A stretch of DNA of 45,657 bases from Deltaproteobacteria bacterium (GTDB lineage Bacteria > Bacillota > Desulfotomaculia > Desulfotomaculales > JAGUVT01), in assembly GCA_020062745.1 (NCBI GenBank), contig JAGUVT010000056.1:1-45657 (forward strand). Direction: 5' to 3'. The notes beneath the pieces were generated by a model that was given only the letters and a program-made list of their open reading frames with translations, had not been told where the DNA came from and searched no databases. Positions 2,903-11,248 of this stretch are shown here, in pieces. The position numbers and the translations under genes were made by a program. Positions within the stretch are counted from its first letter, which is position 1. Every line of letters starts with the position of its first letter.

Positions 2903-3205
2903 TTGAACGGCAAACTCATAGGGCGGAACCCCATCCGCTCTATTATTTTTACCCAGGACTTTAAGCAAAAAGCTGCTCCTTTTTACTGGGGCAGAACAGG
3001 GCAGAAACAGGGCAAAAACGGGGCAGGAAAAACACCCCTCCCTGAACGCCCTGTGCGGCGCGTACAAGTCAATTACAAGGGCAAAGGAAAACACGCCAAA
3101 ATGGAGCGAATGTGGAGGCGCTACGCAGGCAGATATGGCTTACAATCAAAAAGCCCTGGAAAATCCAGAGCTTTGCTTGATATTATGGAATGGCAAGATT
3201 CATAG
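2903..3205 (+). CDS. Hypothetical basic protein, doubtful
   Basis: A 100-codon open frame from a TTG, 15 bp after the gp10-like gene and on the same strand. The product is rich in Lys, Arg and Gly and recalls no family. The DNA from about 2986 to 3032 is an imperfect purine-rich tandem repeat (units like GGGCAGAAACA), and no clear ribosome binding site is visible. It may be the degraded end of the tail module rather than a functional gene. Confidence 0.3.
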   Translation: MNGKLIGRNPIRSIIFTQDFKQKAAPFYWGRTGQKQGKNGAGKTPLPERPVRRVQVNYKGKGKHAKMERMWRRYAGRYGLQSKSPGKSRALLDIMEWQDS

Positions 3206-3643: not shown

Positions 3644-3682
3644 AGAGCGGGATTCCTGTGTTGGGATACCCGCTCTCGTTTT
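3644..3682. terminator. Bidirectional intrinsic terminator between phage remnant and fic copy 1
   Basis: AGAGCGGG (3644-3651) pairs with CCCGCTCT (3669-3676). The stem is extended inward by ATTCC/GGGAT with one bulged A, giving about 13 bp. CGTTTTA follows on the plus strand; on the minus strand TTTCTGTATT follows, just past the fic stop. A second, weaker inverted repeat (AAAGCCG 3598-3604 with CGGCTTT 3628-3634) lies upstream. Confidence 0.7.
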
Positions 3683-4430
3683 ATGACAGCTTGGGAAATG
3701 GAATGTGCAGCAGCCGCATGATTTCTTTCTGTGTTTCGTATACCCGCTCAGCAATGAAATCCATAAACGGTCGGTCATCTTTATGGGCTCGCTCCAGCAG
3801 GCTGTTATACTCCTGACGCAAAACCGGCGGGATCACAGCCAGCATGTAACCGTCCTGAATGAGAGCCGTGTTCATCAGCAGTCTGGAAATTCGACCATTG
3901 CCGTCGATAAAAGGATGAATAAATACGAATCGCTTGTGTAACTGAGCTGCGAACTTGACTGGGTGATATTTGTCCCGCTTCTCTGCGACCCATTGAAATA
4001 GTTTTGCCATCTCCTGCCCGATCAGCTTCACGTCGCACACTGTATACTTGGAACCGGTTATGAAGACAGGGCGGTCACGATAGTGGCCGGCTTCTTTAGC
4101 ATCTATTCCTGTATAAAACATTCGGTGCATTGTTAGAGCATCAGCCTCAGTGATACGACGGCTACCCAGCAGCGTGAACATAAAGTCGTACGCCTGTGCA
4201 TGCCCCAGTGCCTCAAATGTGTCTTTAAGCGGTTTACCGCCAACAGTCAGCCCATCCTCCAGCAGCACCTTTGTCTCGCTAATGGTGAGGGTATTTCCTT
4301 CCAGAGCATTGCTCGACCAAGTGAGACCAATACGGTAATAGCCCTTTATTTCATTGAGCAGGTGGCCCTCAAAAGGACGATGCTCATCAATTGATGCTTT
4401 GTAGCGGTCGATTTTATCATATAAAGTCAT
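3681..4430 (-). CDS. Fic family protein (class II), copy 1
   Basis: A 249-aa protein. Fic enzymes transfer AMP or a related group from a nucleotide to a hydroxyl side chain of a target protein. The catalytic loop HPFIDGNGRISR matches H-x-F-x-(D/E)-G-N-G-R-x-x-R completely, so the enzyme should be active. An inhibitory helix motif S-N-A-L-E-G lies N-terminal to it, marking class II self-inhibited Fic proteins. Start is ATG with GGGGGA upstream. It lies downstream of the XRE repressor gene at 4519-4737 on the same strand, with an 88-bp gap, probably one transcript. Copy 2 at 9233-9988 shares most of the sequence, including the identical end segment ERVYETQKEIMRLLHIPFPK. Target and substrate cannot be read from the sequence; toxin-antitoxin-like or defence roles are possible. 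Confidence 0.92.
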   Translation of the reverse strand: MTLYDKIDRYKASIDEHRPFEGHLLNEIKGYYRIGLTWSSNALEGNTLTISETKVLLEDGLTVGGKPLKDTFEALGHAQAYDFMFTLLGSRRITEADALTMHRMFYTGIDAKEAGHYRDRPVFITGSKYTVCDVKLIGQEMAKLFQWVAEKRDKYHPVKFAAQLHKRFVFIHPFIDGNGRISRLLMNTALIQDGYMLAVIPPVLRQEYNSLLERAHKDDRPFMDFIAERVYETQKEIMRLLHIPFPKLS

Positions 4431-7742: not shown

Positions 7743-8092
7743 ACACAGTACAAATATCCCCGGTTTTCCGCAAGGAGATGGAGCAAATACGCGGCATGAA
7801 GCCCCGATTTTTCAATAATGACTCCCTGGGCCGCCTTTCACCGCTGACCCGACTTTTATTCATAGGGCTTTGGTGCAGGGCAGACAAAGAGGGACGCCTG
7901 GAGGACAGGCCCAGAGCGATTAAGAAGGCAATCCTGGGATACGATGATGTAACCGCCGGCCAGGTAAACGGCATGTTGCAGGATCTCCATGACAGCGGAC
8001 TTATTGCCCGGTACCAGGCAGAGGACGGTTGCTACATCCAGGTGGTTAATTTCAGCAAATTCCAAACTCAGCTATCAAAGGGAACCAAGTAA
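7739..8092 (+). CDS. Phage replisome-organiser-like / DnaD N-terminal-type winged helix, short form
   Basis: A 117-aa protein. It contains LTRLLFIGLWCRADKEGRLEDRP, then LGYDD, then LHDSGLIARYQ and a YIQVVNFSKFQTQ strand. This pattern (LPPLARLLFIGLWxLADREGRLEDRP ... NFxKHQ) is the N-terminal winged-helix domain of phage replication-initiation/replisome-organiser proteins. Those usually continue for 100-200 residues after NFxKHQ. Here the protein stops 7 residues later, so either only the DNA-binding domain is kept or the gene was truncated. Start ATG overlaps the previous stop; ribosome binding site GAGAGGAG. Confidence 0.7.
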   Translation: MNTVQISPVFRKEMEQIRGMKPRFFNNDSLGRLSPLTRLLFIGLWCRADKEGRLEDRPRAIKKAILGYDDVTAGQVNGMLQDLHDSGLIARYQAEDGCYIQVVNFSKFQTQLSKGTK

Positions 8093-8124: not shown

Positions 8125-8153
8125 TTTACAAGCAGGAAAAATTGTTATATAAT
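8125..8153 (+). promoter_or_regulatory. Strong sigma-A promoter ahead of hairpin RNA
   Basis: TTTACA (8125-8130), a 17-bp spacer, and a consensus TATAAT (8148-8153). Transcription should begin near 8160, just ahead of the inverted-repeat region that ends in a U-run. Confidence 0.75.
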
Positions 8154-8159
8154 AGCATA

Positions 8160-8226
8160 GCACGAGCACCGTGCAGGCACCGAAAAGGCACCAGTATTAC
8201 GCACGGTACCCGGTGCTTATTTTTTG
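8160..8226 (+). ncRNA. Short structured RNA or attenuator with alternative hairpins
   Basis: Directly after the promoter come three GCACC copies (8166, 8177 and 8188) and then GCACGGT (8201-8207) and CGGTGCT (8211-8217), followed by TATTTTTT. AGCACCG (8165-8171) can pair with CGGTGCT to make a terminator hairpin, but the overlapping ACCGTGC (8168-8174) can pair with GCACGGT instead; the two pairings exclude each other. Either a small RNA of about 65 nt ends here, or this is an attenuator for the gene at 8248. Structure is seen; function is inferred. Confidence 0.55.
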
Positions 8227-8247
8227 AGAAGCAGGAGGTGCCAGACT

Positions 8248-8580
8248 ATGGACAGACGTGCAGTTTATTTTTATACGCTCCCAGGCGAGACCGCGTGCGC
8301 CGGACTGGCCCTCGACGTGCATATTCACAGTGAAGTGCTCCGATTTGACGATACCATCAGAGGCCACGAAATCCCTGGCAAGGTTGCAGCGGAAGACGAG
8401 AATGGTTTCACGTTTACGTCCACAGGTTACATGCCGGGAGAATGGCGGTTTGATGTGTTGACGGTTGAGGAGTTTCGGCGCGAACATTATAAGATGGTCG
8501 AGGGAGGAGAAACCATGGCGGCCAAAATCAAAACCACGGATGACCTTCACCAATGGTACCGGCGGGAGTTCGGAATTTGA
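8248..8580 (+). CDS. Hypothetical protein of the element (110 aa)
   Basis: Starts at ATG 8248 after AGGAGGTG; the frame is open slightly upstream but inside the terminator-like hairpin. An N-terminal beta-rich part (RRAVYFYTLPGETACAG) is followed by a charged C-terminal helix region with DDLHQWYRREFG. No family recognised. Expression probably depends on read-through of the hairpin at 8165-8226. Confidence 0.6.
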   Translation: MDRRAVYFYTLPGETACAGLALDVHIHSEVLRFDDTIRGHEIPGKVAAEDENGFTFTSTGYMPGEWRFDVLTVEEFRREHYKMVEGGETMAAKIKTTDDLHQWYRREFGI

Positions 8581-8599
8581 GGTAAAGGAGGGCGGAACC

Positions 8600-8791
8600 A
8601 TGCACTACAGTTTTAATGAACTGGCAGGCATTCCGAGTGTCCGGAAGAAGACAGGGCAAAGGGTACCCGTGGTTATAAAATGCCGTGTTGAACCCCAGTC
8701 CAGGCTTTCGGAAATTGCGGCAGTTACCGCCGACATGCTGCGCTCTCAATCGAAGGCGAAGCGGTCAAAGAATAGGTACCTGTATGAGTGA
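8600..8791 (+). CDS. Small hypothetical protein (63 aa)
   Basis: ATG 8600 preceded by AAAGGAGGGCGG. A short basic protein with VPVVIKCRVEPQSRL in the middle and a Lys/Arg-rich end (SKAKRSKNRYLYE). Ends overlapping the next gene's start. No function recognised. Confidence 0.5.
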   Translation: MHYSFNELAGIPSVRKKTGQRVPVVIKCRVEPQSRLSEIAAVTADMLRSQSKAKRSKNRYLYE

Positions 8792-9020
8792 GGAGAAACG
8801 ATACGACAAGCCATTCTCGCACCCGCGCTGGCACGAACCCATCGGCGGAGAGGTCGTCGGGCATGTGGAACTGTCCGAGGAAAAGCAGAAGAAGGCGCAC
8901 GAGGACGCTGTCGCCATCCTAAAAAGCTGGGGAATAAAAATCAAGGACGAGCCAGAATTCGACCCAAAACCGTGGCAGCAAAATGGCAACAAAAATATTC
9001 CTAAACCCAAAAAATATTGA
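8784..9020 (+). CDS. Small hypothetical protein (78 aa)
   Basis: ATG 8784, overlapping the preceding gene by 8 bp, with only a weak ribosome binding site, so translation is probably coupled. Very hydrophilic product; an LSEEKQKKAHEDAVAILKSWG helix is the most protein-like part. Last gene of the plus-strand set. No function recognised. Confidence 0.5.
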   Translation: MSEEKRYDKPFSHPRWHEPIGGEVVGHVELSEEKQKKAHEDAVAILKSWGIKIKDEPEFDPKPWQQNGNKNIPKPKKY

Positions 9021-9232: not shown

Positions 9233-9988
9233 CTATGCCATTTTTGGAAACGGAATATGCAGCAGCCGCATGATTTCCTTCTGCGTTTCGTATACCCGCT
9301 CGGCAATGAATTCACAGAACGGCTCCGATTTACCCTTGTTCTGGTACTGCCGGATGGTGTCGTTGTATTCTGGCCGGAGCACAGGGGGAATAATTGCCAA
9401 CTGATAACCGTCTTGTATCAGCGCCAAATTCATGATCAGGCGGCTCGTTCTGCCGTTGCCGTCGGTGAATGGGTGGATTGATACAAACTTCAGGTGCAGC
9501 AGCGCGGCAAAGGTTACTGGATGGTAATTGTTCCGCTCGGCCTCTACCCATTTCTCCAGCTTCCGCATTTGCCCATCAATCTCCTGTGGCCGGGGGAAGA
9601 CATACCTGGTGCCGGAGACGATAACGCTCTCCTTCCTCCATGTGCCGGCGTTTGCCTCGTCAATGCTTTTGTAGAACAGGCGATGCATGGTTTTAATGTC
9701 CTCCACAGTTATGCGCTGCTCCCCAATCAGGGTAAACATGAAATCATAGGCTTGGCCGTGGCCCACCGTCTCATAGAAATCCCGGAGCGGCCTGCCCCCG
9801 ATGGTTAGACCGTCCTCAAGCACCACCTTTGTCTCGCTGATGGTGAGGGTGTTCCCCTCGATGGCATTACTCGACCATGTGAGCCCGATGCGGTAGTAGT
9901 CCTTCAACTGCTTCAGCATATGCCCTTCGAAGGGGCGAACCTCGCTTATCGCCTTGTGGCAGCGGTCGATTTTTTCATATATGGTCAC
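9233..9988 (-). CDS. Fic family protein (class II), copy 2
   Basis: A 251-aa protein, paralogue of the protein at 3681-4430. The catalytic loop is HPFTDGNGRTSR, fully consistent with the Fic consensus, and the inhibitory S-N-A-I-E-G motif is kept. It starts with GTG in a GTGA overlap with the upstream zinc-ribbon gene, so the two are translationally coupled. The second half of the cassette differs from copy 1 by this inserted zinc-ribbon gene. The proteins are most alike around TWSSNA-EGNTLTISETK and at the C-terminus, and diverge between residues about 120 and 180, as expected if target recognition differs. Class is certain; target and role are not known. Confidence 0.92.
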   Translation of the reverse strand: MTIYEKIDRCHKAISEVRPFEGHMLKQLKDYYRIGLTWSSNAIEGNTLTISETKVVLEDGLTIGGRPLRDFYETVGHGQAYDFMFTLIGEQRITVEDIKTMHRLFYKSIDEANAGTWRKESVIVSGTRYVFPRPQEIDGQMRKLEKWVEAERNNYHPVTFAALLHLKFVSIHPFTDGNGRTSRLIMNLALIQDGYQLAIIPPVLRPEYNDTIRQYQNKGKSEPFCEFIAERVYETQKEIMRLLHIPFPKMA

Positions 9989-10612: not shown

Positions 10613-10714
10613 TATAATCACGCCTTTGGTAAGATAAGCGTATAAAAAAGCCCGGCGTTTTGATGTATGTTCCCTTTGACCGGGTATATTTTTTCCGGGA
10701 AGGAGATTGATTTG
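10613..10714 (+). promoter_or_regulatory. Leader of the purine operon
   Basis: TATAAT at 10613-10618 has no good -35 box at 16-18 bp. In the leader, CCCGG (10651-10655) can pair with CCGGG (10680-10684), a hairpin followed by TATATTTTTT, or with CCGGG (10695-10699) next to the ribosome binding site. This could be an attenuator, but the stems are short. I see no purine-riboswitch core sequence. Confidence 0.3.
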
Positions 10715-11248
10715 ATGTTTCAGCCGCTGGTGGGGATTGTGGCCGGCAGTGATTCCGATCTGCCGGTAATGAAGGAAGCGGCGAAGGTTTTGGATGAATT
10801 CGGGATACCGTATGAAGTGGTAATATCGTCTGCCCACCGGGTACCGGACAAGACGGCGGGTTATGCCCGGTCGGCCGCCGGGCGGGGACTGAAGGCGGTT
10901 ATTGCCGGGGCGGGGGGCGCGGCGCACCTGCCGGGGGTAATCGCCGCGCACACTTCTTTGCCGGTAATCGGCGTGCCGGTCAGTTACGGCGCGCTAAACG
11001 GGGTGGACGCCCTTTATGCGATGGTGCAGATGCCGCCCGGGGTGCCGGTGGCGGTCGTGGGCATCAACCAGGCCGGCAACGCCGCCATACTGGCCGCCCA
11101 GATCATCGGAGCCGGCCATCCGCCGGTGCGGGAGAAGGTGGAGTCTTTCAAGGCCGCGCAGGCCCGTAAAGTGGAGGCCAAAGACGCCCTGCTGGCCGAA
11201 CTGGGCATTGAGGCTTACCTGAACCGGAAAGGAGACGGCAGGTTTTGA
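10715..11248 (+). CDS. purE: PurE, N5-carboxyaminoimidazole ribonucleotide mutase (or AIR carboxylase)
   Basis: A 177-aa enzyme of IMP synthesis that forms carboxyaminoimidazole ribonucleotide. The signature GSDSDLPVM at the start binds the phosphate; SSAHRVP carries the catalytic histidine; AGAGGAAHLPG and QMPPGVPVA follow. The chosen ATG follows AAGGAGA by nine bases. First gene of the operon, overlapping purB (TTGA). No purK lies nearby, so either carboxylation is done by a distant PurK or by spontaneous carboxylation in CO2-rich conditions, or this PurE uses CO2 directly; the sequence alone does not decide. Confidence 0.95.
   Translation: MFQPLVGIVAGSDSDLPVMKEAAKVLDEFGIPYEVVISSAHRVPDKTAGYARSAAGRGLKAVIAGAGGAAHLPGVIAAHTSLPVIGVPVSYGALNGVDALYAMVQMPPGVPVAVVGINQAGNAAILAAQIIGAGHPPVREKVESFKAAQARKVEAKDALLAELGIEAYLNRKGDGRF

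Follow-up and report, generated by a model that had tools for sequence, protein, structure and literature searches.

Lambdoid phages keep their replication origin inside a gene: iterons and an AT-rich tract occupy the middle of initiator gene O (PMC7466680). Lambda also provides an inhibitory arrangement, oop-ori, which needs iterons, a promoter and the short terminated OOP RNA, and does not need the AT-rich part (PMC3349717). Intrinsic-terminator attenuators place competing stems and a GC-rich hairpin with a T-run between a promoter and a gene. Type III toxin-antitoxin systems (ToxIN-like) combine a promoter, tandem repeats of roughly 34-38 nt, a terminator and a gene for a small protein. We compared each of these with a prophage locus in a 45,657-nt stretch of DNA, hereafter called the window.

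The locus shares with the lambdoid origin a set of helically spaced direct repeats beside an initiator DNA-binding domain. The domain, RepN, lies directly upstream, and the repeats are phased at 11 nt and match those of relatives. Full-length RepN relatives hold their repeats in-gene and follow them with a second repeat tract, again as in lambdoid phages. However, RepN arrays have an unrelated repeat sequence and length (11 bp) and belong to a different protein. Moreover, the window initiator is truncated, its array is non-coding with its own promoter, and the second tract is missing: no unwinding tract of 7-bp repeats adjoins the array, which lies at 8155-8214, outside a RepN reading frame that stops at 8092.

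Lambda oop-ori likewise joins iterons to a promoter-driven, short terminated RNA and dispenses with the AT-rich part, and the window anatomy would be compatible with such an arrangement. That inhibition was described on laboratory plasmids rather than in a natural module, however, and lambda oop lies beside the iterons, whereas the window transcript would run through them. Attenuators match the window in having a promoter, competing stems, a GC-rich hairpin with a T-run and then a gene. They differ in that the repeats in the window are iterons of an initiator, neither a leader peptide nor an Rfam motif was identified, and some members of the window's family (L016, L005, L023) depart from the terminator form. 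Type III toxin-antitoxin was tried and rejected: the window units are 11 nt long and are common to rep genes, repeats of tens of nucleotides with a ToxN-like protein are absent, and the protein encoded downstream matches no toxin family.

A repeat leader in a prophage remnant

The window is an entire contig (C45) of a 2.69-Mb genome. Roughly its first 9-10 kb form a prophage remnant carrying tape measure and tail genes, Fic, a DUF5131 gene, RepN, the repeat element and a gene for a 110-aa protein. The DNA beyond resembles chromosome (pur genes, a helicase, an NAD-dependent ligase). In a remnant of this kind, the module may be inactive. purE adjoins the prophage (10667-11248), a purE homologue adjoins related prophages in L038, and the prophage in L019, which belongs to Thermoanaerobacterium butyriciformans, adjoins a xanthine/uracil permease gene, in both cases downstream of the 110-aa gene; possibly, an integration site is common to prophages across genera. 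Two similar Fic-domain genes, 3681-4430 (-) and 9233-9988 (-), flank the early operon, and behind each come small ORFs on the minus strand: a pair of immunity-like modules in the remnant.

By its profile match and structural model, RepN is predicted to comprise no more of a phage replication initiator than the winged-helix N-domain, the C-terminal half of full-length initiators being absent. Modelled with AlphaFold2 (mean pLDDT 82.5), it comes closest to winged-helix DNA-binding proteins such as CodY, MarR and MecI (Foldseek E 6e-3 and weaker). Further matches in the same range of E-values are 4pql and 4pt7, titled 'N-Terminal domain of DNA binding protein' and 'Structure of initiator'. No other protein of the RepN kind was found in the genome. 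The 110-aa protein has no PHROG, Pfam or NCBIfam match, and comparison of its model (pLDDT 82) with the PDB gave no significant match.

Between these two genes lies the element. A first-pass annotation had described a TTTACA-17-TATAAT promoter, three GCACC copies and a later CGGTGCT running into a T-run, all outside coding sequence. All of these motifs are present at their exact coordinates (Table 1), and the region, situated between two small genes, is non-coding. The promoter (8125..8153, plus strand) is of the sigma-A type and agrees with the consensus at 11 of 12 positions. Absent from that annotation was the feature we consider key, the exact 11-nt period of the repeats. It had also named 8248-9020 as the stretch that an attenuator might control; the leader does precede the 110-aa gene, and the interval holds three small ORFs, not one gene.

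As classes, neither promoter-like sites (5 found against 5.4 expected from shuffles) nor terminator-like sites (9 against 8.7) are enriched in the window, and a strict, simple terminator scan of the window did not list the hairpin at 8166..8225.

Table 1. Features of the leader and adjoining genes, in window coordinates
Feature	Position	Strand	Detail
RepN, 117 aa	7739..8092	+	phrog_16167, E 9e-33, profile 1-96 of 315
-35 TTTACA	8125-8130	+	sequence
-10 TATAAT	8148-8153	+	17-nt spacer after TTTACA
Predicted iteron array	8155..8214	+	best place for matrix in 45.7 kb, both strands
GCACG	8160 and 8201	+	sequence; GCACGGTACCCGGTGCT begins at 8201
GCACC copies	8166, 8177, 8188	+	spacing exactly 11 nt
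Array units	8166, 8177, 8188, 8201	+	GCACCGTGCAG, GCACCGAAAAG, GCACCAGTATT, GCACGGTACCC, respectively; last unit at 13 nt spacing
Terminator-like hairpin	8166..8225	+	upstream GCACC units with CGGTGCT 8211-8217, T-run 8217-8225
GGTACC	8205-8210	+	sequence
CGGTGC	8211-8216	+	sequence; CGGTGCT is 8211-8217
T-run TTATTTTTT	8217-8225	+	sequence
Shine-Dalgarno AGGAGG	8233..8242	+	runs into GGTGCC; could pair with GGCACC units
110-aa gene	8248..8580	+	homologues at 38-92 percent identity
Small downstream ORF	8600-8791	+	sequence, ORF list
Small downstream ORF	8784-9020	+	phrog_8857, E 4e-14

The same iterons inside phage rep genes

A search for relatives of RepN returned 80 viral loci, most of which have, about 280-450 nt downstream of where the domain starts, an array of the type AAGCACCATACAAGCACCAGACAAGCACC. 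Among 48 loci from non-redundant phages with RepN relatives, all outside the window's family, the best lag-11 stretch of the whole locus fell within +270..+470, counted from the RepN domain start, in 41, where 2.0 were expected. Control lags of 10, 12 and 13 placed only 2, 4 and 0 of the 48 there. The reading frame is open across the array stretch in every one of the 48. Since 11 is not a multiple of 3 and the frames are nonetheless open, the repeat is conserved as nucleic acid and not as protein. From this pattern, we identify the rep-gene arrays as RGCACCRTRCAA-type 11-bp iterons, the predicted DNA sites of a RepN-type initiator.

Many rep loci carry a further set of 7-bp repeats after the array. 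At least two such units occur in 28 of the 48 loci, and the best lag-7 stretch lies there in 19. The repeats, TGATTCC/CTTAACC or TATTACC/GTTAACC, sit directly 3' of the iterons at +380..+560 after the RepN domain (L082, L094, L097, L099, L108, L121, L125, L129 and others). The 11-bp iterons and 7-bp repeats inside rep genes are probably the two parts of an origin, one apparently undescribed. In the open-access literature we found neither this family's 11-bp repeats nor the TGATTCC repeats described as an origin; an earlier description elsewhere is possible.

The window array belongs to the same class of repeat. A weight matrix was trained on 58 rep-gene arrays with the window's family left out entirely; training and test loci were separate yet from one protein family, which was the aim of the test. 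Across both strands of the 45.7 kb, the matrix ranked position 8155 first with a score of 23.2 (next best, 17.7), while the maximum in random 45.7-kb sequences was 10.0 +/- 2.5 and never exceeded 16.7. Scores of the individual units were uneven: 12.9 for unit 1, 5-7 for units 2 and 4, and below 3 for unit 3. The window GCACC repeats are accordingly classed, by sequence, as 11-bp iterons of the RepN type, with the sites themselves predicted.

A separate 11-12-nt repeat (CAGAACAGGGCAGAAACAGGGC...) at 2983-3040, inside ORF 2903-3205, is unrelated and scores 17.7, against the random maximum of 16.7. Six unrelated viral contigs (L042, L049, L059, L068, L069, L073) have a TATAAT followed by 11-nt GCAC or GTAC arrays, and phmmer with the window protein found no RepN relative in any of them. 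A pattern of TATAAT plus three RGYAC units, searched in viral contigs, re-found members of the family along with many unrelated 11-nt arrays; phmmer with the window RepN found the protein encoded only in the family members, and the other contigs were left out. The pattern GGCACC..GGCACC..GGTGCYTNTTTTT gave five hits in viral contigs, all tRNA genes followed by a terminator and unrelated. No near-identical DNA copy of the element turned up among 50,697 phage records, among 72,556 plasmid records or elsewhere in its own genome.

Split initiators, leaders and RNA folding among relatives

Homologues of the 110-aa gene are of two kinds, one leaderless and one with RepN and the leader upstream. In the leaderless kind (L009, L018, L021, L032), the last part of a larger ORF overlaps the gene. 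Very large ORFs lie upstream of the homologue in L018 (594-3998), L009 and L021, reaching 1135-1140 aa in L018 and L009, and the one in L018 has a Phage_Mu_F domain. The setting looks like a head-gene operon, and its layout may recall polymorphic toxin/immunity pairs. Nine loci with a 110-aa homologue and no leader had no iteron array by the matrix (best score 11.9).

The kind with RepN and leader comprises 14 loci including the window, of which about 8-9 are clearly distinct, related prophages inflating the locus counts. Here the RepN reading frame closes with the domain or just past it (for example, '...SQIPAPEFQ*'), at the point from which full-length relatives continue into the array. A promoter matching at least 9 of 12 consensus positions stands in the same place in 13 of the 14 loci, with a TTTA-like -35, usually 17 nt, and a TATAAT-like -10. 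The 11-nt periodicity is common to the leaders, though weak in L006, and matrix scores are poor in L006 and L017. A T-run is present in 13 of the 14 leaders, compared with 1 of 71 coding loci; L016 is the only leader without one.

The linkage also holds in an even phylum sample of 399 genomes, the window's own included, which yielded 19 RepN matches. All six short, N-domain-only RepN proteins precede a promoter, a repeat leader and a 110-aa gene, while none of the long RepN proteins that could be examined has a 110-aa gene nearby. In two of the six the leader is not well picked by the matrix: L168 has GGTACC-type units, and the leader of L169 has diverged and is accompanied by a second array further downstream.

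L016 is intermediate, with a non-coding leader that still has both iterons and 7-bp repeats. About 1.9 kb upstream in L019, L030, L031, L033, L035 and L038 lies an array accompanied by 7-bp repeats, which the leader array of these loci lacks. The window leader has none, and pattern searches of the window genome found neither 7-bp repeats elsewhere nor a second array.

Leaders fold more stably than coding arrays. The window transcript has a folding z of -3.0, and ten leaders average -2.5, eight of them at -1.5 or below (exceptions, L005 and L016). Coding arrays fold little above expectation (mean z -0.7, n=23; Mann-Whitney p = 0.0014, uncorrected for relatedness). The window's arm-unit duplex reaches -20.0, against -12.1 +/- 2.7 for shuffled arms. 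In seven of the ten leaders, upstream units pair far better with the arm that precedes the T-run than with shuffled arms; L006 is borderline, and in L005 and L023 the arm does not pair. A leader's own arm does only somewhat better than the arms of other relatives (-16.1 versus -13.4).

Folding predicts alternative, mutually exclusive stems in the window, as the first-pass annotation had proposed, and their partners shift between relatives. The iterons bear a partial dyad of their own (GCACNGTGC). Because the partners shift and the iterons are themselves dyadic, these results support hairpin potential rather than one conserved structure. Most relatives do have the hairpin potential and the T-run. 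Pairing between the units and the Shine-Dalgarno sequence is seen in the window and absent in L017, L019 and L030; sequestration of that sequence by GGCACC was rejected, the pairing not being conserved.

Readings of the leader

We slightly favour the view that initiator iterons have been displaced into a transcribed, terminator-capped leader, where they would act as a RepN-responsive operator or attenuator of the 110-aa gene. This draws on the iteron identity, promoter, T-run, folding and linkage computed above. RepN would bind the array just downstream of the promoter. Judging only from where that site lies, bound RepN would limit transcription into the 110-aa gene, and the terminator would halt most transcripts at about 65 nt, with some read-through. 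Several features weigh against this reading: the weak units 2-4, the scores of L006 and L017, the missing T-run of L016, the unpaired arms of L005 and L023, and the weak Foldseek E-values of RepN.

Alternatively, the array could be the prophage's replication origin or its remnant, with RepN on the iterons starting replication and the promoter giving transcriptional activation or a primer. We think this unlikely. The iterons do occupy the place of the origin-like tract in full-length rep genes, and the L016 leader retains both repeat types, but the window leader has no 7-bp repeats, and the C-terminal half of a full-length initiator is missing from RepN. In L019, L030, L031 and others, an array that includes 7-bp repeats lies about 1.9 kb upstream, and the leader array would then have another task. 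More doubtful still is an origin decoy or replication silencer analogous to lambda oop-ori, in which transcribed, terminated iterons and a DNA-binding-only initiator would hinder phages with the same iterons. The ingredients of oop-ori (PMC3349717) are present in the window, without unwinding repeats, but the parallel is one of analogy, no target phage is known, and oop is a separate unit that does not cross the iterons. We give the same low weight to a related proposal, that this prophage family uses the split initiator gene as a stand-alone module sensing or blocking the replication of phages with the same iterons. Its parts would be the DNA-binding half of the initiator, the transcribed iteron array with its terminator but no unwinding element, and the 110-aa gene.

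Least probable, in our judgement, is the RNA-only attenuator or small RNA of the first-pass annotation, with the GCACC copies as alternative 5' arms. Relatives show good folding, a T-run and a conserved promoter. However, the copies do not appear to be primarily RNA arms: the same iterons recur in dozens of phages inside rep coding sequence, nearly always with no promoter, T-run or unusual folding. Pairing partners also shift between relatives, and no Rfam family matches the element. Part of that proposal is supported. Given the conserved promoter, the non-coding position before the 110-aa gene, the hairpin potential and a T-run in most relatives, the leader may plausibly be attenuated or yield a short terminated transcript.

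If the stand-alone module were real, it would be a natural counterpart of laboratory lambda oop-ori inhibition. More broadly, a guess at a small RNA gives way to a link that can be tested, tying a widespread, little-described initiator family to its probable binding sites, the 11-bp iterons and 7-bp TGATTCC/TATTACC repeats inside the rep gene. In the window's family, a naturally occurring variant, the sites are parted from the initiator and lie under a promoter, and such a variant could show by what means phages control, or jam, one another's replication.
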